DNA of 64,000 bases from Aldersonia kunmingensis (GTDB lineage: Bacteria > Actinomycetota > Actinomycetes > Mycobacteriales > Mycobacteriaceae): contig NZ_LRRB01000140.1 in assembly GCF_001646865.1 (NCBI RefSeq), positions 1 to 64,000 of the forward strand. Direction: 5' to 3'. Below are positions 4,613 to 62,428 of the stretch, in pieces (positions within the stretch are counted from its first letter, which is position 1; every line of letters starts with the position of its first letter). Below the pieces are notes generated by a model, which searched no databases, was not told where the DNA came from, and saw only the letters and a list, made by a program, of their open reading frames with translations. A program made the translations under genes and the position numbers.

Positions 4613-6160
4613 ATGCGACAGCGCACCGCGGTCGTTGTACTCGCCGCCGGGGCCGGAACCCGAATGCGGTCGAAGACCCCCAAGGTGCTGCATCCTCTCG
4701 CTGGGCGATCGATGCTCGCCCACGCGCTGTACGCGGCAAACGACGTTCACCCCGAACACCTGATCACCGTGGTGGGTCATGACCGGGAGAAGGTGTCCCA
4801 CGCGGTGTCCACGGTGGCGGGCGACCTGGGCCGCAAGATCGACCTGGCGGTCCAGGAGGAACAGCTCGGCACCGGCCACGCCGTGCGCTGTGCGCTCGAC
4901 ATCCTGCCCGCGGATTTCGCCGGCGACGTCCTGGTCACCTCCGCGGACGTGCCGCTGCTCGACGGCCACACACTCGAGGCGCTCGTCGAGGAGCACCGCA
5001 GCTACTCCGACCGCCCCGGTGCCACCGTGCTCACCTTTGTTCCCGCGGATCCGAACGGCTACGGCCGGATCGTCCGCGACGACAACAATCAGGTCGCCGA
5101 GATCGTGGAGCACGCCGACGCAACCCCGGCGCAGGCTTCGATCGGCGAGGTCAACTCCGGTGTCTATATCTTCGACGCGGACCTGTTGCGCGCCGCGATC
5201 CATCAGCTCCGCACCGCGAACGCGCAGCACGAGCTGTACTTGACCGACGTTGTGAAGATCGCGCGTCAGGCCGGTCGCGCGGTGTACGGCGCGCTGCTCG
5301 CCGATTCGACGCGCGTGACCGGCGTCAACGACCGCGTACAGCTGGCCGCCGCGGCTCGCGCACTGAACACCGTCCTGCTGGAACGGCATATGCGGGCCGG
5401 TGTCACCGTGATCGACCCGGGCAGCACCTGGGTGGACGCAACAGTGCAGATCGGCCAGGACGCGCTGCTGCATCCCGGCGTGCAGTTGCTCGGAGCGACG
5501 GTTATCGGCGAGGACGCGGAGATCGGCCCCGACACCACCCTGACCGACGTCACGGTCGGCGCCGGCGCAAGCGTCGTGCGCAGCCACGGCACGCGCGCGG
5601 TCATCGGCGCCGGCGCGACCGTCGGGCCGTTCACCTACCTGCGCCCGGACAGTGAAATCGGTGAGGCAGGCAAGCTCGGCGCGTTCGTGGAGACCAAGAA
5701 CGCGCAGATCGGCGCGCACAGCAAGGTGCCGCACCTGACCTACGTCGGGGACGCGACGATCGGGGAGTACAGCAACATCGGCGCGTCGAGCGTTTTCGTC
5801 AACTACGACGGCGTTAAGAAGAGCCGCACGATCGTCGGTTCGCACGTCCGCACGGGCAGTGACACCATGTTCGTCGCACCGATCGAGGTCGGAGACGGCG
5901 CGTATACCGGCGCCGGAACCGTGTTGCGGAATAATGTTCCACCGGGGGCGCTGGCCGTGTCAGGTGGATCACAGCGCAATATTGAAGGCTGGGTGGAGCG
6001 GAATCGTCCCGACACGGAGTCCGCTCGGGCAGCTGCCCGGGCGCGTGACGGGATAGAGACGGCCGATACCCCTGCGGATGCGGATCCGCAGCCAGGACCG
6101 CCGGCACAAGCTGCGGGCACATCGCACGAAACGCAACAAAAGGATGGCGAAGACCAGTGA
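4613..6160 (+). CDS. glmU: Bifunctional GlmU: glucosamine-1-phosphate acetyltransferase / UDP-GlcNAc pyrophosphorylase
   Basis: GlmU makes UDP-N-acetylglucosamine, the cytoplasmic precursor of peptidoglycan and of the arabinogalactan linker. The 515 residues show an N-terminal uridyltransferase domain starting with [20 protein letters not shown], and a C-terminal left-handed beta-helix made of hexapeptide repeats from about residue 265, including [11 protein letters not shown] and the NYDG segment. A 40-60 residue low-complexity tail rich in Ala, Asp and Gln follows, as is usual in actinobacteria. The ATG at 4613 follows a GAGGGAGC ribosome site. Its stop overlaps the start of prs by 4 bp, so the two are translationally coupled. 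Confidence 0.97.
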
Positions 6161-7137
6161 GCGCGTTCTCAATCGACAACTCGAAGAACCTGATGCTGTT
6201 CTCCGGGCGAGCGCACCCCGAACTGGCCGATCAGGTCGCAAAGGAACTCGACGTTCAGGTCACTCCGCAGACCGCACGCGACTTCGCCAACGGCGAGATC
6301 TTCGTGCGCTTCGAGGAGTCGGTCCGCGGCTGTGACGCCTTCGTCCTGCAGAGCCATCCCGCGCCGCTGAACACCTGGCTGATGGAACAGCTGATCATGA
6401 TCGACGCGCTCAAGCGCGGATCGGCCAAGCGCATCACCGCCGTCCTGCCCTTCTATCCGTACGCGCGCCAGGACAAGAAGCACCGCGGCCGTGAGCCGAT
6501 CTCGGCCCGCCTGGTCGCCGACCTGCTCAAGACCGCGGGCGCGGACCGCATCATCACGGTCGACCTGCACACCGACCAGATCCAGGGCTTCTTCGACGGC
6601 CCGGTCGACCACATGCACGCGCAGGGCCAGCTCGCCCAGCACGTCCGCAACGGCTACGAGCTCGAGAACATCACGGTCGTCTCCCCGGACTCCGGTCGCG
6701 TCCGAGTGGCGGAGAAGTGGGCCGACTCGCTCGACGGCGCGCCGCTGGCGTTCATCCACAAGACCCGCGATCCCCTGGTGCCCAACCAGGTGAAGTCGAA
6801 TCGCGTGGTCGGTGAGGTCGAGGGCCGCACCTGCATCCTGATCGACGACATGATCGACACCGGCGGCACCATCGCCGGCGCGGTCAAGGTGCTCAAGGAA
6901 GCCGGCGCGGGCGACGTCATCATCGCCGCCACCCACGGCGTGCTGAGCGATCCTGCGGCCGAGCGCCTCGCCGCGAGCGGCGCACGCGAGGTCGTCGTGA
7001 CCAACACCCTGCCGATCGACGAGGACAAGAAGTTCCCGCAGCTGACCGTGCTGTCCATCGCGCCGCTGCTCGCTCGCACCATCCGCGAGGTGTTCGAGAA
7101 CGGCTCGGTGACGAGCCTGTTCAACGGCAGCGCCTAG
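6157..7137 (+). CDS. prs: Ribose-phosphate pyrophosphokinase (PRPP synthetase)
   Basis: Transfers pyrophosphate from ATP to ribose-5-phosphate to give PRPP, used for nucleotides, His and Trp, and in these bacteria also for decaprenylphosphoryl-arabinose of the cell wall. The 326-residue protein has the expected two phosphoribosyltransferase-like halves. Visible motifs include [17 protein letters not shown] (metal and ATP region) and the PRPP-binding loop [15 protein letters not shown] near residues 228-242. The GTG start at 6157 overlaps the glmU stop (GTGA), the arrangement seen in mycobacteria. It ends in front of a long hairpin region (7259-7328) that may stop transcription. Confidence 0.97.
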
Positions 7138-52481: not shown

Positions 52482-53744
52482 TCATTCATGTTTCGCAGAG
52501 CTATTATGGCGGACCTGATTGAACGGCACCCCCTTGTCCGCAGCATGTTCGCGCGGCAGACCGAGCACTCGTTCGGCAATGACATTGCGGGCCATCTCAT
52601 TGCTGCCGCCACCGAGCGCCACCGTCTGCCGGGACAGGTACCGCTGCCCCACTCCCAGCAGTTGCTCGTCGCCCTCGACAACACCGAACGGACCCGCGAT
52701 CTCCATCGCGGTGTCGACCTCGAGGAAGACCACATCGGAGTGGAAGAGCCGGATGATCGACCCCGCGGCCGGCGGCAACGAGCCGTCCCGCATGGCCGCG
52801 GAAACGTGCTCGACCATCCGATCGCGCACCATGCGGCGCGCCAGCACCCGGCCGACCTTTTCCTGCACGAGCGGGTCGTCCGCGGCACCGACGGACCTCG
52901 CGAGCGCGATCAGATCCGAAGTCGATTCCTCTGACCGCTCGCGGCCCCGGCCGCTGGCGAACTCCGAGCCCTGCCCGACCGCGCGGCGCTCGTGGAAGAG
53001 CAGCCGCGATGCGACCTCCCAACCGCCATTGACCTCACCGACCACCGCGTCATCGCCGAGCCGGAGTCCGTCGAAGAACTCGGTGCAAAAGTCGTTCGAG
53101 CCGTCGACCTGTTCGATCCGGCGCAACTCCACGCCCGGTGAGTTGATCGGCACCAGGAACATCGTCAGCCCCTCGTGCTTCGGCACCGTGGGATCGGTTC
53201 GCACCAAGAGCAATCCGTAGTCCGCCGCGAACGCACTGGTGCTCCAGGTCTTTGCACCGTTGATCACCCAGGCGTCGCCGTCACGTTCCGCACGGGTGAT
53301 CAGGCCCGCCAGATCCGATCCGCCGCTCGGCTCGGACAGCAACTGGACAAGCACTTCCTCGCCCCGCAGCACGGCCGAAATGCGTTCGCGTTTCTGGTCT
53401 TCGGATCCGGTGTCGAGCAGTGTCGCCGCACAAATGGTGAACGTCGGCACATTCAGAATCAGCGGCATCTCGTACTGGGCCACTTCGATGTCGAAGGCAC
53501 GCTGATACGCCACGTCCAGCCCGAGTCCACCGTATTCGCGTGGGAAGCAGATGCCCGCAAAGCCGCCCGAGTACAGCAACTGCTGAAGTTCACGGGCCCG
53601 CTTCCACGCGGCTTCGTCGCCACGTCCTGCCACGGGCGGATTCTCCGGGTCCAGGCGCGGCATGTTCTCGGCGAGCCACTCGCGTGCCCGAGCCGCGAAC
53701 TCCTGCACCGATTCCGTTGCGGCGTGGGCAGTTGTCTCGATCAT
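52482..53744 (-). CDS. Acyl-CoA dehydrogenase, large subunit type
   Basis: A 420-residue FAD-dependent acyl-CoA dehydrogenase. FAD and substrate segments are VQLLSEPSGGSDLAGLITRA and WVINGAKTWSTSAFAADYGLLL, and the C-terminus has GGGSNEMARNVIAERVLGLPR. The usual C-terminal catalytic Glu position reads Gly here, as in long-chain and steroid-type FadE proteins whose base lies elsewhere. The ATG overlaps the stop of a second, divergent-in-sequence dehydrogenase by 3 bp. Paired genes of this type in steroid catabolism encode heterotetramers, so a two-subunit enzyme is likely. Last gene of the nine-gene operon. Confidence 0.88.
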   Translation of the reverse strand: MIETTAHAATESVQEFAARAREWLAENMPRLDPENPPVAGRGDEAAWKRARELQQLLYSGGFAGICFPREYGGLGLDVAYQRAFDIEVAQYEMPLILNVPTFTICAATLLDTGSEDQKRERISAVLRGEEVLVQLLSEPSGGSDLAGLITRAERDGDAWVINGAKTWSTSAFAADYGLLLVRTDPTVPKHEGLTMFLVPINSPGVELRRIEQVDGSNDFCTEFFDGLRLGDDAVVGEVNGGWEVASRLLFHERRAVGQGSEFASGRGRERSEESTSDLIALARSVGAADDPLVQEKVGRVLARRMVRDRMVEHVSAAMRDGSLPPAAGSIIRLFHSDVVFLEVDTAMEIAGPFGVVEGDEQLLGVGQRYLSRQTVALGGGSNEMARNVIAERVLGLPREHAADKGVPFNQVRHNSSAKHE

Positions 53745-54880
53745 GCGGCCGGAGTCCCCTCTGCTGCGTTGCGCGCAATAATTCGGTGATGCCCGGCCGT
53801 CGAGCCGAACATGTTGCGATACAAGGTGATCCGTCGAAGGTAGAGATGCAGGTCGTGTTCCCACGTGACCCCGATGCCACCGTGCAACTGAATGCACTCC
53901 TGGACCAACTGTCCGGCATGCTCACCGAGGTAGGACTTCGCGGCGCTCACCCAGATCAGCGCGGACGGGTTGCCGGCAACGACCTCATCAACGGCGCCTG
54001 CCGTGATCCCGCGGCAGGCGTGCAGCCACATGGTCATGTCGGCGAGCCGGTGCTTGAGCGCCTGATACGAGGCCAGCGGCCGACCGAAGGTGTACCGCTG
54101 TTCGGTCCACTCGATGGTCAACTTCAGCACGGTGTCGATTGCGCCGACGATCTCGGCGCACTGCAGCAGGTTCGCGATATCGGATTGGCGCTGAATCAGG
54201 GCCGGCGTTTGCGCCGCGGTGCCAACCACCGCTGAGGCAGCAACCACAACGGAATCGAATTCGACTCGTGCGTAATGCTTTACCAGGTCCAGGCTCGGCT
54301 GTGGGCGCGCAGTCACCCCGGCAGAGTCAGCCGGGATGAGGAACTGCCGCACGCCGTCGTCGGTGCGCGCAGTCACCAGCAGGAGATCGGCCTCCGAGCC
54401 TGCTTCGACCCGATCCTTCACGCCGTCGAGGCGATAGCCGTCCGGCGTCTGCGTCGCAACCAGCGTCGGTTCGAGCGGACCGAATTGCCGGCCTGGCTCC
54501 TCCACCGCCCAGCTCGCGACCTTGCTGCCCTGCACCAGGTCGGCGATCGCGTCCGCGTGGTCGTCGCGGTTTTCGGCGTCGACCAATCCCGCGAGCACGA
54601 CGCTCACCGGATGCAGCGGACCGGGAGCAACCGTGGTCCCCATCAGCTCCGCGATCGTGGCGAGATCATGCAGGCCGCTGCCCGACACGCTGCCGCCATC
54701 GAGCTCCTCCGGCACAAGCAGTCCGGCCCAGCCGAGCCCAGCGGCCTGTTCCCACCACGCCGCGTCGTAGGACCGGCCATCCGCGTGGAGCGCACGCTGA
54801 TGACTCACGGTCGCGTTCTTGTCGAGGAATGTCCGTGCCGTCCGCAGGAACAGCTCGGTTTCCGGTGCAGTGTTGTTCAC
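53741..54880 (-). CDS. Acyl-CoA dehydrogenase, partner subunit type
   Basis: A 379-residue acyl-CoA dehydrogenase-fold protein. GLGWAGLLVPEELDGGSVSGSG, RYTFGRPLASYQALKHRLADM and QLHGGIGVTWEHDLHLYLRR are typical. Several FAD-contact regions are weak (the middle beta domain begins ASWAVEEPGRQFG), a feature of the smaller subunit of alpha2beta2 dehydrogenases. Start GTG 54880 overlaps the CMD-like stop by 4 bp and its stop overlaps the next dehydrogenase, so three genes are translationally coupled. The pair probably desaturates a CoA ester made from the oxygenase products (inference). Confidence 0.86.
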   Translation of the reverse strand: MNNTAPETELFLRTARTFLDKNATVSHQRALHADGRSYDAAWWEQAAGLGWAGLLVPEELDGGSVSGSGLHDLATIAELMGTTVAPGPLHPVSVVLAGLVDAENRDDHADAIADLVQGSKVASWAVEEPGRQFGPLEPTLVATQTPDGYRLDGVKDRVEAGSEADLLLVTARTDDGVRQFLIPADSAGVTARPQPSLDLVKHYARVEFDSVVVAASAVVGTAAQTPALIQRQSDIANLLQCAEIVGAIDTVLKLTIEWTEQRYTFGRPLASYQALKHRLADMTMWLHACRGITAGAVDEVVAGNPSALIWVSAAKSYLGEHAGQLVQECIQLHGGIGVTWEHDLHLYLRRITLYRNMFGSTAGHHRIIARNAAEGTPAA

Positions 54881-55416
54881 TCGTCCTCCACGCCGAAGGT
54901 GTTGACCGCCATCGCGAGCAGGGCGTATCCGCCGATCGTGAAGACGAGGTCCATTCGTTGTTTGTCGTCGAAATACTTGCCGAGTTCGTCCCAGACCTCG
55001 GCGGAGATGGTGCTCTGTGTGTCGAGGTCGTCAACGGCAGCGACGACGATCCGGTCGCAGTCGTCTGCGGGTTTCCCGTCGCGAATACCGTCGATATCGG
55101 CATCGGTCAGTCCGACTCGCTTTGCGAGCGGAATGTGATGCGTCCACAGGTATTCGCAGCCCCGACGGTGGACTACCCGCATCAGCGCCACTTCGCGGAT
55201 GCGCGGCGACAGCGCCGACTCCCGCAACAGGTAGGTGTTGAACGGTAGGTACGCATGCGTCAGGTCCGTGTGGCGTACCAGCGTGGACAAGACGTTGCCG
55301 GCATCGGCCGGGTTGGCACGCTCGACGGGGAGCAGTGACGTCAGCGACGAACGGACCTCATCGGTCCATTCGTCGGACGGCAACGGCGCCAACCGCAGCG
55401 GATGTCGGGATGTCAT
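54877..55416 (-). CDS. Carboxymuconolactone decarboxylase-like (AhpD fold) protein
   Basis: A 179-residue all-helical protein of the CMD/AhpD superfamily. The core is LSPRIREVALMRVVHRRGCEYLWTHHIPLAKRVGLTD. Where AhpD has the redox pair C-x-x-C, this protein has E-Y-L-W-T-H-H with a single Cys just before the Glu, so it belongs to the subgroup lacking the peroxidase site. Many such proteins sit in catabolic operons with unknown roles, possibly decarboxylation or hydrolysis. ATG 55416 is 7 bp after the EthD-like stop. Confidence 0.8.
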   Translation of the reverse strand: MTSRHPLRLAPLPSDEWTDEVRSSLTSLLPVERANPADAGNVLSTLVRHTDLTHAYLPFNTYLLRESALSPRIREVALMRVVHRRGCEYLWTHHIPLAKRVGLTDADIDGIRDGKPADDCDRIVVAAVDDLDTQSTISAEVWDELGKYFDDKQRMDLVFTIGGYALLAMAVNTFGVEDE

Positions 55417-55423
55417 CGAAAGG

Positions 55424-55732
55424 TCAGGCCGTCGCCTCGTGGATCAGGCTCAGGTACCGCATTACTGCCGGCGGTTCGGTCCGGACGCCGACAGGCTTGG
55501 ACATCGTGCCGCTGGCGAAGAACGCCTTCAGGGTCGCCTTTGCCGTCTCCACGTCCGCGTCGATCTCGTACAGCGTGATGAAGTTGTCGCCGTCCTGCCA
55601 CCGCCGGGCAGATACGAAGCCATCCAGCTCGAGCATCTCGGGAACGTGGACCTCGTTGTGCCAGCGGTTGTAGTCGTCGACGGTGTCTGCCGAGGCGGGC
55701 CCGCTCTCGACGAACAGAATTGACTTAGCCAT
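55424..55732 (-). CDS. EthD/DUF4286-like dimeric alpha/beta-barrel protein
   Basis: A 102-residue protein with the ferredoxin-like fold of the dimeric alpha+beta barrel superfamily: SILFVESGPAS, YNRWHNEVHVPEMLELDGFVSARRW and NFITLYEIDADVETAKATLKAF. The NEVHVPEM segment is the usual active-site strand-helix in EthD-like proteins. Relatives act as small monooxygenases, cyclases or accessory proteins for oxygenases. ATG 55732 has AGGAG 8 nt upstream; sixth gene of the operon. Confidence 0.75.
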   Translation of the reverse strand: MAKSILFVESGPASADTVDDYNRWHNEVHVPEMLELDGFVSARRWQDGDNFITLYEIDADVETAKATLKAFFASGTMSKPVGVRTEPPAVMRYLSLIHEATA

Positions 55733-55773: not shown

Positions 55774-56619
55774 CTACTGGATCGGCTCGTCGCCGAGCAC
55801 CGTGGTGCGCAGCATCTCTCGCGGCGAGGTCTCGTCGTACGGTGCGGCGCGGTGCAGCACCCCGCGGTTGTCCCAGATGACGGTGTCGCCCACCGACCAG
55901 TTGTGGCTGTAGACCTGCTCGGCGGTGGTGGCGCGCTTCAGCAGGTCGTCCAGCAGGGCCTGGCCCTCGTCGCGGTCCATGCCGACCACGTAGTGGGCCG
56001 AGGCGCCCAGGACCAACGACTTGCGGCCGGAGCGGTGGCTCCAGATCAGCGGATGCTCGTGGGTGGGGCGGGCTCGCCACTGCGCCAACTGTTCCGGCGT
56101 CGGATCGGGGTTGACCCGGCTCTGCGACGCTTCGAGCGAATGCACGACGCGAAGCGAGGCGAACCGCTCCTTCTCGTCATCGGTGAGTCCGTCGTAGGCG
56201 GCATACGAACTGGCGAACTCGGTCTCACCACCGGAGGTAGCGACCTGGACGGCCGAGAGGACGGTCGCCATCTGCGGGTACGAGTTGTCCGTCGGGGTGC
56301 ATCCGTCGATGTGCCAGTCGAAGGTGGCCTTGAGGTAGGCCGCGGAGGAATTCTTCGACTTGTCCAACGTGACGGGGTAGATACCTGCGACCGGGTGGTG
56401 GCCGTCGGCCGAATGGTCGATCGCGCCGAGTCGACGGCAGAACTCGACCTGATCCGCCGGATCGAAGTTCACAGCGGGGAAGACCAGAACGCCGTTGTCC
56501 TCCAAGGCATTCAAAATGGCTTCCGCTATCGCATCGTCACTGACCATGCGGGAGGGATCGATGCCGACAACCTCGGCACCGACCGTGTCGGTGAGTTTGT
56601 TGATGGTCAGCAGACTCAT
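55774..56619 (-). CDS. TauD/TfdA-family 2-oxoglutarate-dependent dioxygenase
   Basis: A 281-residue non-haem iron dioxygenase. The iron-binding HxD is His103-Ile-Asp105 in FDWHIDGCTP, the distal His is His256 in WDNRGVLHRAAPYD, and the 2-oxoglutarate Arg is Arg267 or Arg271 in SPREMLRTT. It would hydroxylate its substrate at the expense of 2-oxoglutarate and oxygen. Lies 49 bp downstream of the small protein gene in the same unit. A second oxidation chemistry in the same operon as the Rieske system suggests successive oxygenations of one molecule. Confidence 0.9.
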   Translation of the reverse strand: MSLLTINKLTDTVGAEVVGIDPSRMVSDDAIAEAILNALEDNGVLVFPAVNFDPADQVEFCRRLGAIDHSADGHHPVAGIYPVTLDKSKNSSAAYLKATFDWHIDGCTPTDNSYPQMATVLSAVQVATSGGETEFASSYAAYDGLTDDEKERFASLRVVHSLEASQSRVNPDPTPEQLAQWRARPTHEHPLIWSHRSGRKSLVLGASAHYVVGMDRDEGQALLDDLLKRATTAEQVYSHNWSVGDTVIWDNRGVLHRAAPYDETSPREMLRTTVLGDEPIQ

Positions 56620-56668: not shown

Positions 56669-57004
56669 CTAGGGCATCGGCGCGTCGGTGCGGATCATGA
56701 CGGCGTCCGCGCCATCCACCGGGATGGGTTGATGCATGATCTCGACGGCCATCGCGACCAGGACGAGCGAATAGATCAGGTGCAGCAGGTTGAGTGCATC
56801 CTCGGGAAGGTCGTCGAGGTCGAACTTGTCGCAATACTCGATCGCCTCTTCCAGCCGCGGAAAGAAGGCGTCGTAGAACTCCCGCAACTGCGGCTGCGTG
56901 CTGGAAATGCGGGTGTTCCAGCGCTCGGTTTCCGTGGCCAGGCACCAGGTCGGCGCGAACCCCTCGAGATCGGCAAAGGCGCTGGGCAGCATCGTGTCCG
57001 GCAT
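56669..57004 (-). CDS. Small helical protein paired with Rieske oxygenase (copy 1)
   Basis: A 111-residue acidic, probably all-helical soluble protein of a family I cannot name. Its start overlaps the Rieske gene stop by 1 bp. It is clearly homologous to the protein at 62102-62428, also placed right behind a Rieske gene; both share FADLE, WCL-x-TE, a central FYDA and YCDKF-x-LDDLPED-x-LNL-x-HL. It does not resemble the NTF2-like beta subunits of classic ring-hydroxylating dioxygenases. A structural or electron-transfer accessory of the oxygenase is inferred from this conserved pairing. Confidence 0.8.
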   Translation of the reverse strand: MPDTMLPSAFADLEGFAPTWCLATETERWNTRISSTQPQLREFYDAFFPRLEEAIEYCDKFDLDDLPEDALNLLHLIYSLVLVAMAVEIMHQPIPVDGADAVMIRTDAPMP

Positions 57005-58263
57005 TACGGGGCCACCCCCTCGCCGCGCTCGAGCTTGTAGTCGTCGACCCAGTCGACCGCAACCTTGTGCAGGTGGCGCACCAGAATTTCCTGATCGTTG
57101 AGCGGATAGTCATCCACGATGTCGTATTCAAGGGCCGCCTGCGTACCGCCGAGCATGCCGGCGTCCTGCAGCGCGAACTCCTTCAGCACGACGGCAGCGA
57201 CCTCGTGCTCGATGCGCTCGTGCACGGTGCGGGCCGGGTGGAAGAAGGTGTAGGCCTCGAAGCGGTGGGTGTTGTGCGACGTCGGCCAGTACCGGTACAG
57301 CAGGTACCAACCGTGATAGATCAGGATCTCGAGATTCGGGAAGATCTGGAAGTTGCTGATCCCCCAGTTCTCGACGCCGCCCGGATTCACACCCTCCGGT
57401 ATGGGTCCGAGATCGGGCGAGCGCCACGGGCCTACGAGGCCACTCTCGGTAGCCCGCTCGATCGGGTACATGAACTCGGGATCGAGCAGCCATCGACGCG
57501 TGCCCGCGGTCGACACCAGTCGGTGGGGCCCATCGAGTTGGAAATGCGCGCAGGTGAATCCGGCATTCGGCTTGCGGACCGCCGACGGCACCTGCTGACT
57601 GTGCAGCGACGGGACGTGGTAGTACTCCTGGAAGGCGTCGGCGAAGATCTTCCAGTTGCTGTTGTTGTGCGCGATCCACTCGTAGCGTTCGGTCAGCTTG
57701 TCGAACGGGTACTCATCCAAACCCGTGACCATGGGTCCGAGGAACTCGCGCAGCGTCTGCTTCGGCGATTCGTCGAAGTTGACGAACACGAAGCCGTTCC
57801 AGATATCGCAGTGCACCTCGATCAAGCCGTGCGCTGCGAGGTCGAGGTTGAAGTACTCCGACTCGCTCGGGACGTGGATCAGGGTGCCGTCCAGTGCGTA
57901 ACGCCAGCCGCAGCGCGCGCACAGCAGGTCGTCGCGGGCTTCTCTGGCTTCGACGGCGTCGGTCGAGACGAGCTTGTGGCCGCGCTGCCGGCACGTGTTG
58001 TGGAAGGCCCGGATCTGGTTGTCCTGCCCGCGCACCAGGATGAGCGAAGCATCGACGACCTCGATCTCCTTCGTCGCGACGCTGCCGACGTTCGGCACTT
58101 CCTCGACACGCGCGAGGTTCAACCAGGCGCGCTTGAAGATCGCTTCACGCTCGTCTTCGTAGAACTCGGGGGAAATCGAGTCGCGGAAGGAGATCGGGCC
58201 GGTACCCAACTCGGGGTAGTGCTCGGTCCATGACCCCGCCGCCGGCTTAGCTGGTGCCGTCAT
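57004..58263 (-). CDS. Rieske-type oxygenase alpha subunit with altered Rieske ligands
   Basis: A 419-residue ring-hydroxylating-oxygenase alpha-subunit homologue. In the N-terminal Rieske domain the normal C-x-H and C-x-x-H ligands read Cys91-Arg-Gln93 (NTCRQRGHKL) and Cys115-Ala-Arg-Cys118 (LLCARCGWRY), so both histidines are gone; His96 lies nearby. I rechecked these codons on the DNA. The C-terminal catalytic domain keeps the mononuclear iron ligands His216 and His221 (DAFQEYYHVPSLH), bridging Asp209 and Asp367 (FALQDAG). ATG 58263 has AGGAGG upstream. Third gene of the operon, followed by its small partner gene. Confidence 0.88.
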   Translation of the reverse strand: MTAPAKPAAGSWTEHYPELGTGPISFRDSISPEFYEDEREAIFKRAWLNLARVEEVPNVGSVATKEIEVVDASLILVRGQDNQIRAFHNTCRQRGHKLVSTDAVEAREARDDLLCARCGWRYALDGTLIHVPSESEYFNLDLAAHGLIEVHCDIWNGFVFVNFDESPKQTLREFLGPMVTGLDEYPFDKLTERYEWIAHNNSNWKIFADAFQEYYHVPSLHSQQVPSAVRKPNAGFTCAHFQLDGPHRLVSTAGTRRWLLDPEFMYPIERATESGLVGPWRSPDLGPIPEGVNPGGVENWGISNFQIFPNLEILIYHGWYLLYRYWPTSHNTHRFEAYTFFHPARTVHERIEHEVAAVVLKEFALQDAGMLGGTQAALEYDIVDDYPLNDQEILVRHLHKVAVDWVDDYKLERGEGVAP

Positions 58264-58309: not shown

Positions 58310-59056
58310 TCACAGCACCGAACCGCCATTCACGCCCAGCACCTGCCCGGTGATGAAGCTCGCCTCGTCGGAGCACAGGAACCCAACTGCCGCAGCAATA
58401 TCCGCTCCGGTGCCGAGTCGGCCCATCGGAATGGCCTTGGCAATATCCTCATTGGGCGGCAGGTAGCCGGCGGCCTGTCCGGCATGCTGCATCGGCGTCT
58501 CGATACCGGACGGCGGAATGTTGTTCACCGTGATTCCGGCCGTGGCGTACTCACGCGCCAGCGATTTGGTCAACGTGATGACGCCGCCCTTCGAGGCCGC
58601 GTAGTGCGCCGCGAAAGGCGATCCGCGCTGCGCGCTGGACGACGAGATCATCACGATCCGTCCCCAGTTCGCGGCGATCATGTCGGGCAGGGCGACCTGG
58701 CAGCAATGAAAGGTGCCGGTCAGGTTGACATCGATTACGCGCGACCAGGATTCGATCGAGATCTCGGTGAAGGCTGAGTACCCGAACAATCCCGCGCTCG
58801 TCACCAGAATCTGCACGGGGCCGAGTTCGCTGCGCACCTTCGCGAAGGCGCTCTCGACTGCGGTGCGGTCGGTAACGTCGGCGCGCACCGCGAGTGCGGT
58901 TACCCCGTCGGCCCGCAGATCGTCGGTAACCCGTTGTGCTGCTTGCTCATCGAGGTCCAGAACGGCGACCTTGTAGCCCCGCCGACCCAGTTCATGACAG
59001 GTGGCTTCGCCCATTCCGGACGCTCCGCCCGTGACTACCGCGACTCGTGTCGTCAT
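58310..59056 (-). CDS. Short-chain dehydrogenase/reductase
   Basis: A 248-residue classical SDR: cofactor loop VTGGASGMGEATC, NAG-equivalent VTSAGLFGY, catalytic Ser in MISSSSAQRG and YAASK (Tyr, Lys), with the C-terminal ITGQVLGVNGGSVL of the FabG-like group. Likely oxidises an alcohol formed by one of the oxygenases, or a dihydrodiol-type product (inference). ATG 59056 preceded by GGAGCGGAA. Lies 26 bp after the reductase gene. Confidence 0.88.
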   Translation of the reverse strand: MTTRVAVVTGGASGMGEATCHELGRRGYKVAVLDLDEQAAQRVTDDLRADGVTALAVRADVTDRTAVESAFAKVRSELGPVQILVTSAGLFGYSAFTEISIESWSRVIDVNLTGTFHCCQVALPDMIAANWGRIVMISSSSAQRGSPFAAHYAASKGGVITLTKSLAREYATAGITVNNIPPSGIETPMQHAGQAAGYLPPNEDIAKAIPMGRLGTGADIAAAVGFLCSDEASFITGQVLGVNGGSVL

Positions 59057-59082
59057 TTCCGCTCCATCGCTATTGGCTGTGC

Positions 59083-60162
59083 TCACTCGTAAACCACCCG
59101 GACCGTTCGAGTGGTGGGCAAGGCTTGGCAGGTGACGACATAGCCCTCCGCGATCTCGTCGTCGTCGAGTACGTCGTTGTTGAGCAATTGCGCGGCTCCC
59201 TCGGTCACCTGGGCGATGCACGTTCCGCAGGTGCCGGTCTCGCACGAGGACGGCGGACGCATATCAGCCGACCTGGCCATCTGCATCAGCGTGTATCCGG
59301 CGCGGTACGGCAGCGTGACCTTCTGCCGGTCCAGCTCGATCGTCACCTCCTCGGTGACAACCGCGGCTGCCTCCTCCGCGGTGAGCTCCGGCACGGCCGA
59401 CGCGAAACGTTCGACGTGTACCCGTGCGGCCGGAACACCAGCGTTCAGCAGCGCCGCCTCGACGGTCTCCATGAACGGTGCGGGACCGCAGATGTAGAAC
59501 TCGCACTCTCCGGCGCCGGCGAGGAAGGATTCGATGCCCTCCGGGGTGGCGACCCCGTGCGTCTCGTCGAGATGGTGCCGAAGCTCGAATCGGTTGGCGT
59601 GCCGATCGCTCAGGTTGCCGAGCGCGTCCGCGAAGATCACCGAACTCTCGGCCCGGTTCGCGTAGAACAGGCGCGCGCTGCGGGTCGTGTGCCCGAGCAC
59701 CGAGCGCAGCAGCGAGTACACGGGGGTGATTCCGCTGCCGCCGGCGAATGCGACGAACTCGCGATCGGATTCATCGAGCACGAAGCGGCCCTGCGGCGGC
59801 GCTGCATGCAGGCGATCCCCAGGCGCGACAGCGTCGTTGATCCAGTTCGATACAACCCCGTCGCGGTCGCGCTTGATGGTGACCCGAAGGTTCTCACCGG
59901 TCGCGGGCGTGGACGACATCGAGTAGCAGCGCCGGTGTTCAGCGCCATCGATACACACCGACAGCGTGAGGTACTGCCCGGCGTTGTACCGGAACTGCTG
60001 CCGACTCTCCGGCGGAATCTCGAACACGACGGACACGGCTTCCGGGGTCTCCCGGACCACGTCCGTCACCAGCAGTGGGACGAAACCGTCCGGCACTGTG
60101 GCTGTTGCGGCGCTGGGCGCACCGGCCGCGACGGCGGGCGAGGAAGGCGAGGTCTCAGGCAT
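59083..60162 (-). CDS. KshB-like ferredoxin reductase of the Rieske oxygenase system
   Basis: A 359-residue three-domain electron-transfer protein that would move electrons from NAD(P)H through flavin and a plant-type [2Fe-2S] cluster to the Rieske oxygenases. The flavin site RCYSMSSTP lies near residue 80, the nucleotide region AFAGGSGITPVYSLLRSVL near 140 and FYICGPAPFM later, and the C-terminal cluster motif is CETGTCGTC. Layout and sequence resemble KshB and HsaB-type partners in mycobacterial steroid degradation. First gene of the nine-gene operon; ATG 60162 has CAGGAG upstream, and the operator-like dyad lies just beyond. Confidence 0.9.
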   Translation of the reverse strand: MPETSPSSPAVAAGAPSAATATVPDGFVPLLVTDVVRETPEAVSVVFEIPPESRQQFRYNAGQYLTLSVCIDGAEHRRCYSMSSTPATGENLRVTIKRDRDGVVSNWINDAVAPGDRLHAAPPQGRFVLDESDREFVAFAGGSGITPVYSLLRSVLGHTTRSARLFYANRAESSVIFADALGNLSDRHANRFELRHHLDETHGVATPEGIESFLAGAGECEFYICGPAPFMETVEAALLNAGVPAARVHVERFASAVPELTAEEAAAVVTEEVTIELDRQKVTLPYRAGYTLMQMARSADMRPPSSCETGTCGTCIAQVTEGAAQLLNNDVLDDDEIAEGYVVTCQALPTTRTVRVVYE

Positions 60163-60300: not shown

Positions 60301-60798
60301 CTATAACTCGACGTGGTCGCTGATGACCTCGTGCCCGGTCCCCTTTTCCACCACACGACTGAGGAGATCGCGCAGCGTTTCATGCTCTTCGGGGGTCAGC
60401 ACGCCGAAAACCTGCTCGTGTGCGGCGATGGCATCGCTGACGACGGCCTGGGCGACCTCTTTACCCTCATCAGTCAGGAAAGCCTGCAGGATGCGCCCGT
60501 GCTGCGGATCCTGGCGTCGCTCGACCAGACCGCGCTTTTCCAGCGCGGTCAGCGCGAGCTGAACCCCCTGCGGCGTGATCAGCAGGCGCCGGGCGAGTTC
60601 CGCCCCGGACAGGCCTGGCTCGTTGGTGAGCTGGCGCAGCAAACCGATCTGGGCAGTGCTGACACCGTGCTGCTTCACGGCCTCGTTGACGGTGGTGAGC
60701 GAGAAGTAGAAGGCCTGCTTCAACAGCCACAGTGTGTTCTCGGTCAGTTCCAACCGTTTCTCCTGCCCGCTTTGACCACGGGATTCGCTGCTCGCCAC
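60301..60798 (-). CDS. MarR-family regulator of the oxygenase regulon
   Basis: A 165-residue MarR protein: helical dimer ends, and a winged helix in LSGAELARRLLITPQGVQLALTALEKRGLVERRQDPQHGR. It lies between two catabolic units on the same strand, each headed by the CAAGTAGTTGA element, which makes it the obvious candidate to bind those sites. MarR proteins usually repress and release DNA on binding a phenolic or other small substrate, so induction by the pathway substrate is expected (inference). Confidence 0.85.
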   Translation of the reverse strand: MASSESRGQSGQEKRLELTENTLWLLKQAFYFSLTTVNEAVKQHGVSTAQIGLLRQLTNEPGLSGAELARRLLITPQGVQLALTALEKRGLVERRQDPQHGRILQAFLTDEGKEVAQAVVSDAIAAHEQVFGVLTPEEHETLRDLLSRVVEKGTGHEVISDHVEL

Positions 60799-60851: not shown

Positions 60852-62105
60852 TCAAGCGGCGGGAGACTTGTGAATCCGGCCGTTCTTCATGACGAAGTGC
60901 ACGTCGAGTGTTGTGCTGATGTCCGCCGACGGATCACCGGGTACGGCAATGATGTCAGCCAGGTACCCGGGTGCGAGGCGCCCAAGTTCGTGGTCCACAT
61001 CGACCAGTTCGGCCGCCACCACGGTGGCCGATCGAAGCGCCTGCAGCGGCGTCATGCCGCGTTCCACGAGCGCGACGAGTTCCTTCGCGTTCTGCCCGTG
61101 CGGCACGGCCGGCGCATCGGTTCCGCATGCGATGCGGACACCCGCTGCAATCGCCTTGGGCAGCATGGCTTTTGCCCGAGGAAAGACTTCTTCAGCCTTC
61201 GCCCGCAGCTCCGGCGCGATCCGGTCGATGGCCATCGCATCCGTCAGGTAGGTCGTCGAGACCAGGAACGTGCCATGGTCGACCATCATCTGGATCGTCT
61301 CGTCGGTTGCCAGGAAGCCGTGCTCGATGCAGTCGATACCGGCGCGAATACACGCCTGAATCGCCTTGTCGCCGACCGCATGTGCGGCCACCTTCACTCC
61401 GGCCCGATGCGCCTCGTCGGCGATCGCCTCGAACTCGGCATCGGAGTACTGCTGGGCGCCCGGCGACGTGCTGTGCGACATGACGCCACCCGAAGCGGAG
61501 ACCTTGATCAGCTTGGCGCCGTGGCGGACCTGATAGCGGACGCAGGCGATCACGTCCGGTACGCCGTTCGCGATTCCCTCGGCAACCGACAGCGGCATGA
61601 CGCCGGGCGCCAGACGCTGGAACACGGTCGGATCCAGGTGCCCGCCGTACGGCGTCACGGCGTGACCGGCCGGATGGATGCGGGGACCGTCGTGCCAGCC
61701 CTGATCGATGGCGCGCATCAGTGCGACATCCAGCAGGTAGCCACCGGTCTTCACCATGAGCCCGAGGTTGCGCACCGTGGTGAAACCGGCATCGAGCGTG
61801 GTCTTTGCGTTGACCGCGCCGCGCAGCGTCCGGTAGGCCGGATCATCCTGCACACCGTGCATCGGGCTGGGCAGGCCTTCCGGCCCGCCCGGTCCGCCGA
61901 TGAGCAGGTTGAGCTCCATGTCCATCAGGCCGGGGAGCAACGTGGAGTCGCCGAGGTCGATGACCGTGGCGCCTTCGGGCAGCGGGCCGTCGGGATCAAT
62001 CGCGACGATCTGTGTTCCTTCTACGACGATGGTCGCCGGCGAATGCACTTTGCCCGCAACAACATCGACCCACCGCGCTGCGCGGAGGACTGTCGGGCCG
62101 GTCAC
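60852..62105 (-). CDS. Amidohydrolase family protein lacking the HxH motif
   Basis: A 417-residue TIM-barrel metallo-hydrolase-like protein, close in layout to imidazolonepropionase/Xaa-Pro-dipeptidase-like amidohydrolases. The bridging Lys201 (GAKLIKVSASGG), His242 (AAHAVGDKAI), His262 (CIEHGF) and Asp330 (CGTDAP) are all in place, but the first metal motif, normally D-x-H-x-H, reads D-M-E-L-N (Glu64, Asn66). It may therefore bind one metal or use Glu as a ligand. Role probably hydrolysis of an amide, lactam or lactone. The GTG start at 62105 overlaps the small-protein stop by 4 bp. Confidence 0.85.
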   Translation of the reverse strand: MTGPTVLRAARWVDVVAGKVHSPATIVVEGTQIVAIDPDGPLPEGATVIDLGDSTLLPGLMDMELNLLIGGPGGPEGLPSPMHGVQDDPAYRTLRGAVNAKTTLDAGFTTVRNLGLMVKTGGYLLDVALMRAIDQGWHDGPRIHPAGHAVTPYGGHLDPTVFQRLAPGVMPLSVAEGIANGVPDVIACVRYQVRHGAKLIKVSASGGVMSHSTSPGAQQYSDAEFEAIADEAHRAGVKVAAHAVGDKAIQACIRAGIDCIEHGFLATDETIQMMVDHGTFLVSTTYLTDAMAIDRIAPELRAKAEEVFPRAKAMLPKAIAAGVRIACGTDAPAVPHGQNAKELVALVERGMTPLQALRSATVVAAELVDVDHELGRLAPGYLADIIAVPGDPSADISTTLDVHFVMKNGRIHKSPAA

Positions 62106-62428
62106 GGAATGGGCTCGATCACGCAGTCCAGGGTCGAAGCGCCGGCATCGGGAACGCGGGGTTGTTTCCAGCACTCGGCCGAAAACGACACAGTGATCAT
62201 CGAATACAGCAGGTGCATCAGGTTCAGCACGTCCTCTGGCAAGTCGTCGAGCGGGAACTTGTCACAGTAGGAGATCGCTTCTTCCGCACGCGGCGTGATG
62301 GCGTCGTAGAAGGCCTGGATGTCGCGCATCTTGCCGTTCGTGCGCTTGGCGTAACGCTCTGCCTCGGTGGGCAGGCACCACTCCGCGTACGCCTCGAGAT
62401 CGGCGAATTCAGCTGGTAGCAAAGACAT
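62102..62428 (-). CDS. Small helical protein paired with Rieske oxygenase (copy 2)
   Basis: A 108-residue homologue of the protein at 56669-57004, roughly half identical over the core: FADLEAYAEWCLPTEAERY, FYDAITPRAEEAISYCDKF and LDDLPEDVLNLMHLLYS. Both end with a variable Pro-containing tail. It starts 6 bp after the Rieske stop and overlaps the amidohydrolase start. Acidic, no signal peptide, no cofactor motif apart from conserved Cys, Tyr and His. Function unknown; conservation of the pairing with a Rieske gene is the key observation. Confidence 0.8.
   Translation of the reverse strand: MSLLPAEFADLEAYAEWCLPTEAERYAKRTNGKMRDIQAFYDAITPRAEEAISYCDKFPLDDLPEDVLNLMHLLYSMITVSFSAECWKQPRVPDAGASTLDCVIEPIP

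Follow-up and report, generated by a model that had tools for sequence, protein, structure and literature searches.

Altered cluster ligands and an intact catalytic domain in one of two paralogous Rieske oxygenase alpha-type subunits of Aldersonia and related bacteria

Introduction

The Rieske cluster defines the family of Rieske oxygenases, in which each alpha subunit is taught to be both electron donor and catalyst. Between the cluster of one subunit and the mononuclear iron of the next, the distance is about 12 Angstrom, against about 44 Angstrom to the iron of the same subunit (PMC12445004; PMC7948474), a geometry in which a subunit without a cluster can still be catalytic if its neighbour has one. 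In the single-alpha oxygenase CntA, E205 serves this inter-subunit transfer, and E205 mutants are inactive (PMC7948474). Two departures from the textbook arrangement are already known: a catalytic subunit that has no Rieske cluster (NdmC, PMC10380055), and systems with two kinds of alpha subunit (NdmA/NdmB). The ligands themselves have been changed by design in the Rieske-type ferredoxin of Sulfolobus (ARF). Iwasaki et al. obtained a rubredoxin-like mononuclear site from the H44I/K45C/H64C variant (reviewed in PMC2946596); H64C alone gave a 3Cys/1His [2Fe-2S] cluster of low potential, and H44C failed to assemble (PMC2946596).

Here we describe an operon of Aldersonia kunmingensis that encodes two paralogous alpha-type subunits, which we call A and B, and in which the cluster ligands of A are altered. 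The window is a stretch of 64,000 nucleotides (contig NZ_LRRB01000140.1, positions 1 to 64,000), and all coordinates refer to it unless a different locus is named.

Results

Protein A (P0001; 57004..58263, minus strand) is a Rieske-oxygenase alpha-type subunit of 419 aa, and its paralogue B (P0002; 62435..63703, minus strand) has 422 aa; the two share 52% identity. Both score above the gathering threshold of Pfam PF00355 (Rieske) and PF00848 (Ring_hydroxyl_A). An AlphaFold2 model of P0001 has the Rieske-oxygenase fold (pLDDT 85.4, pTM 0.89), and its top PDB fold matches are all Rieske oxygenases, so that the Pfam pair and the predicted model agree on the two-domain fold of this family. A first-pass annotation, made from the letters of the window, had read Cys91-Arg-Gln93 and Cys115-Ala-Arg-Cys118 in A and had called B canonical. 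Both readings were borne out. Checked codon by codon on the minus strand, the cluster-binding loops of A (codons 91-118; 57910..57993, minus strand) are C91-R-Q93-R-G-H96 and C115-A-R-C118, with C91 encoded by TGC (57993-57991), Q93 by CAG (57987-57985), H96 by CAC (57978-57976), C115 by TGC (57921-57919) and C118 by TGC (57912-57910). P0001 thus lacks the C-x-H and C-x-x-H of a Rieske site, while B has CRH and CKYH.

The 2-His-1-carboxylate site of the mononuclear iron is present in P0001 as H216, H221 and D367. These three residues had been named in the first-pass annotation as signs of an intact catalytic domain and stand, but the bridging residue that it gave, Asp209, was misassigned. Comparison with CntA (E205/H208, PMC7948474) replaces it by Glu213, three residues ahead of the iron ligand H216. 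All 144 A and all 141 B sequences have both D209 and E213, and E213 provides each of them with the bridging carboxylate of Rieske oxygenase alpha subunits. Cys152 was considered as a substitute cluster ligand and ruled out, since all 285 A and B sequences have it, those with canonical ligands among them.

We sought relatives in the family, in the genus Mycobacterium, in related genera and in a collection of named contigs, and recovered 144 distinct A and 141 distinct B sequences. The canonical CxH/CxxH pattern is found in 88 of the 144 A orthologues; the remaining 56 are altered. Altered A occurs in Aldersonia, Mycolicibacterium, Gordonia and a mycobacterial lineage with genomes of 4.3-5.1 Mb. 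Named sources include Mycolicibacterium neoaurum, frederiksbergense, wolinskyi, setense, porcinum, septicum, peregrinum and houstonense, as well as Mycobacterium aurum, Gordonia rhizosphera and Aldersonia sp. NBC_00410. The protein of this last strain is 91% identical to A of the window and likewise carries C-R-Q-R-G-H and C-x-x-C. Among the matches that we read from other actinobacterial families, in a sample of the class, all were canonical and none had altered ligands. One canonical-type A gene (locus L199, genome G478) has an internal TGA; this was seen in a single genome.

Altered sequences fall into a small number of ligand types. The most frequent has C91, H96, C115 and C118 (n=23) and includes the Q93 of the window, which is confined to the two Aldersonia, while the other 21 have R93. 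A second type has C91, C94, C115 and C118 (CPRC...CKRC, n=16). A third keeps H93 together with C91, C115 and C118 (n=13, plus one sequence that carries both H93 and H96), and a fourth has C91, H93, C115 and S118 (n=3). H118 is lost in 56/56, its place being taken by Cys in 53 and by Ser in 3, and H93 is retained in 17. Every altered A has a further candidate ligand (H93, C94 or H96), with a His at 93 or 96 in 40 of the 56, and Cys93 is absent from all natural A sequences gathered here. The HHD triad and Glu213 are retained in 56/56. Two CxxC knuckles, as in zinc ribbons and rubredoxins, are present in the 16 sequences of the C94 lineage, whereas P0001 combines C-x4-H with CxxC. C94-type genomes (4.3-5.1 Mb) adjoin the slow-growing mycobacteria in the tree, and we infer that they belong to the M. 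terrae group. In their A the Rieske domain lacks about 16 residues at its end, and the AlphaFold2 model is weaker (75.0), yet the fold matches of this model are Rieske oxygenases too.

On the best tree, built without the motif columns, H118 was lost twice and H93 three times. Each loss of H93 comes with H96 or C94; these three losses, all compensated, are too few for significance. Altered A would accordingly have arisen more than once on this tree, although a single origin is not rejected (p-AU 0.135). The second-loop His would have gone first, with H93 then lost in several lineages. Intermediates survive in living species, which carry the canonical, CxH/CxxC, C-x4-H/CxxC and CPRC/CKRC forms.

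We compared substitution rates between the cluster domain (residues 40-160) and the catalytic domain by pairwise codon comparison. For the two sets of altered A, dN(cluster domain)/dN(catalytic) came to 4.84 [4.59-5.00] and 5.12 [4.45-6.03]; canonical A gave 1.31 and B 1.05-1.32, and the bootstrap ranges of altered A do not overlap those of canonical A or B. Catalytic-domain dN/dS was 0.088 in altered A (0.069 in the C94 type) versus 0.117 in canonical A. Between the A genes of the two Aldersonia, dN/dS was 0.039 in the catalytic domain, whereas the cluster core had 0.40. Constraint on the catalytic domain together with relaxation of the cluster domain is not the pattern of a dying gene. In canonical A, a single residue accounts for at least 98% of the sequences at each of 29 positions of the core (residues 86-130). 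Of these 29, N89, C91 and C115 alone remain invariant in altered A, and the positions lost around the cluster include 94, 112, 117 and 120. A spacer of 25 separates C91 from C115 in 88/88 canonical A and in 140/140 complete B; in altered A its length ranges from 18 to 28. Hence the cysteines are kept, and nearly everything else that surrounds a Rieske cluster is gone.

The operon reads in the order B, b, amidohydrolase-like, MarR-like, reductase, SDR, A, a, TauD (all on the minus strand of the window) at most of the mycobacterial and Gordonia loci inspected; at four others (L171, L173, L175 and L177), A, a, TauD, B and b lie together. A small protein follows each alpha-type gene directly, a (56669..57004, 111 aa) downstream of A and b (62102..62428, 108 aa) downstream of B. 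The small partner gene next to A, to which the first-pass annotation had drawn attention, accompanies A in the complete loci inspected, as b does B. Proteins a and b share 52% identity, have no match among Pfam or NCBIfam models, and are possibly an undescribed small-subunit family of Rieske oxygenases. The PaaE-like flavin reductase with a plant-type [2Fe-2S] domain (59083..60162; Pfam PF00970, PF00175 and PF00111; TIGR02160 below cut-off) is the probable electron donor of the oxygenase system. It has FAD, NAD and Fer2 domains and no Rieske domain, and so does not supply a Rieske domain in the manner of the NdmC system. From reading the sequence, the other conserved genes are a putative amidohydrolase-like gene (60852..62174), whose synteny is conserved, a putative MarR-type regulator (60301..60798) and a putative short-chain dehydrogenase-like gene (58310..59170); the TauD/TfdA-family dioxygenase (55774..56619) is a match to Pfam PF02668. 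Two adjacent acyl-CoA dehydrogenase-like genes (52482-54880) come after the operon, and in the C94 lineage this pair is found behind it as well; in the window, a CMD-family gene and a short NIPSNAP-like gene (54877-55723) lie between the pair and the operon.

In the C94 lineage and in its neighbour L181, the operon lacks the reductase gene; other PaaE-like reductases are encoded elsewhere. Loci without it include L160 (2347-8000), L161, L246 and L244; at L160 and L246 the reductase space holds, by reading, putative AveC/spirocyclase-like membrane proteins, an AAA/VWA-like pair and a TetR-like regulator.

In all genomes examined in which A is altered, B is canonical. In the reverse case (genome G158, locus L170), A is canonical and B is altered by a second-loop insertion, CKQRACGWR (L170:1754-3022). 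This pattern is expected if at least one of the two needs a working cluster, the reverse case being one genome only. At L176 (genome G270), B (5751-6700) has a Gln at the expected iron-ligand position Asp367; the match is fragmented, and this is probably a frameshift or an assembly effect.

Discussion

On balance, we think it probable that A has lost cluster-mediated electron transfer, has probably kept or rebuilt a structural mononuclear metal site, and receives its electrons from B across a mixed A/B interface. Under this explanation, A and B would form a pair of alpha-type subunits within a single oxygenase system, each accompanied by a small partner of its own; the Rieske domain of A would have given up its part in electron transfer, and the catalytic domain of A would remain fully functional. 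A metal would be bound in A by C91, C115 and C118 together with H93, H96 or C94, and one structural ion is the likeliest, either Zn or, as in rubredoxin, Fe; such a three-Cys-plus-one set suggests that the metal serves to hold the domain together. Electrons would pass from NADH through the reductase to the Rieske cluster of B, and from there across the interface, by way of Glu213 of A, to the mononuclear iron of A. The mixing of A and B in one oligomer, the flow of electrons from B to A, and the identity and structural role of the metal are what we infer. A broader reading, plausible but somewhat doubtful, is that a Rieske [2Fe-2S] site has naturally and repeatedly been turned into a structural single-metal site, of zinc-ribbon or rubredoxin-like kind, in a catalytic subunit, which would work only in a mixed A/B oligomer of one cluster-bearing and one cluster-less alpha subunit.

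The conservation of E213 in all altered A points to electron supply from a neighbouring subunit, and B is the obvious donor because it has the same operon, the same fold and an intact cluster. In naphthalene dioxygenase, contact with the bridging carboxylate of the adjacent subunit is made by the second-loop His. Loss of H118 throughout altered A, with H93 kept in some, is what would be expected if A need not feed a neighbour. The proposal of the first-pass annotation that a cluster-less A depends on a canonical partner is well supported, albeit indirectly: E213 and the triad are kept, the cluster domain alone is relaxed, B is canonical wherever A is altered, and there is one reciprocal case. 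A reduction of B to a mere electron donor found no support. Since the catalytic domain of B shows no relaxation, B must be supplied with electrons as well, and this restricts the stoichiometries that are possible. Also counting against our explanation are Ser118, a poor zinc ligand, in three sequences; the departure of the reductase gene from the operon in the C94 lineage; and the number of phylogenetic events, too few for the ligand-replacement pattern to have formal significance.

The first-pass annotation had offered another option for A, a different [2Fe-2S] site with three Cys plus His96 or another residue. His96 did prove recurrent, being present in 23 of the 39 altered A without H93, with Cys94 in the other 16. 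Judged from the ligands available, a 3Cys/1His [2Fe-2S] cluster of the NEET-like or ARF H64C-like kind is possible in the 17 sequences that keep H93, and His96 could complete one in P0001. The invariance of C91 and C115 and the frequent His at 93 or 96 are compatible with such a cluster, and the low-potential 3Cys/1His cluster assembled by ARF H64C (PMC2946596) has the ligand set of 14 CxH/CxxC sequences. However, the cluster domain evolves about fivefold faster, nearly all of the residues surrounding the cluster are lost, the loop spacing is variable, and the engineered counterpart of the CPRC/CKRC lineage is mononuclear. The strong relaxation, the variation in spacer length and the zinc-ribbon-like lineage with CPRC...CKRC all speak more for a structural mononuclear metal site, and we regard a retained three-Cys, one-His [2Fe-2S] cluster as unlikely. 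It is more improbable still that A has no redox cluster and is fed by the reductase directly, or by a Rieske protein other than B. NdmC, which has no Rieske cluster, does use the Rieske domain of the reductase NdmD (PMC10380055), and the operon does encode a reductase with a [2Fe-2S] domain; that domain is a plant-type Fer2, though, and in the C94/L181 lineage, where B stays canonical, the operon no longer contains the gene.

Loss of the cofactor that defines the family could also mean that A is a structural or regulatory pseudo-subunit and that B alone is catalytic. We give this very little weight, since none of the 56 altered sequences departs from the triad or E213, and purifying selection on their catalytic domain is stronger than in canonical A. 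Gene decay, a frameshift or an assembly error in A might be suspected in a draft genome of 330 contigs. The first-pass annotation had linked decay to an alteration of this copy alone with other signs of degeneration; what we found are 56 distinct altered orthologues in several genera, complete genomes included, among them the 91% identical relative with the same motif, and a catalytic domain under constraint (dN/dS 0.04-0.09). We therefore reject this explanation.

We found no report of this system in open-licence papers on degenerate Rieske subunits, three-cysteine or rubredoxin-like sites, or this operon. As far as we could find in those papers, two things are new: a cluster domain that is retained but remodelled in one of two paired alpha subunits, and natural A sequences that match engineered ligand conversions. 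The jobs of donor and catalyst appear to be split between the paralogues, and the A/B series offers a natural test of inter-subunit electron transfer. The A series also bears on how iron-sulphur sites vanish or become single-metal sites, and on which ligand changes are tolerated, in a way that matches protein engineering. In many mycobacterial genomes, the label 'Rieske [2Fe-2S]' assigned by domain score is misleading for A.

CntA (PDB 6Y8J, 6Y9D) and other single-alpha (alpha3) Rieske oxygenases are the best PDB sequence matches of P0001 and are among its best fold matches. As in CntA, the bridging Glu of A precedes the first ligand His by three residues; unlike CntA (Cys86/His88/Cys106/His109), P0001 is without both His ligands, and identity over the fold alignment is about 17%. 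The alpha3alpha'3 caffeine demethylases NdmA/NdmB resemble A/B in having two different alpha-type subunits per system, but carry a canonical cluster in both (PMC10380055); as the one solved alpha3alpha'3 case, they are no demonstration of a cluster-less subunit fed by the other. NdmC, which acts with NdmD and NdmE, is, as A would be, a catalytic alpha-type protein that has no Rieske cluster of its own and is fed by another protein. In the NdmC system the Rieske domain is fused to the reductase, whereas A still has the domain, with its ligands remodelled, and would be fed by a paralogous alpha subunit. The C94-lineage A shares the CPRC...CKRC double-knuckle motif with zinc ribbons and rubredoxins, but here the motif is embedded in a Rieske-oxygenase fold. 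The closest parallel in ligand chemistry is with the ARF variants, in which the same ligand positions are changed (C-x-x-H to C-x-x-C, and C-x-H-K to C-x-I-C plus C-x-x-C); the absence of a natural Cys93 in A agrees with the failure of H44C to assemble. The ARF variants are laboratory designs in a small Rieske-type ferredoxin, whereas A is natural and lies inside an oxygenase subunit.
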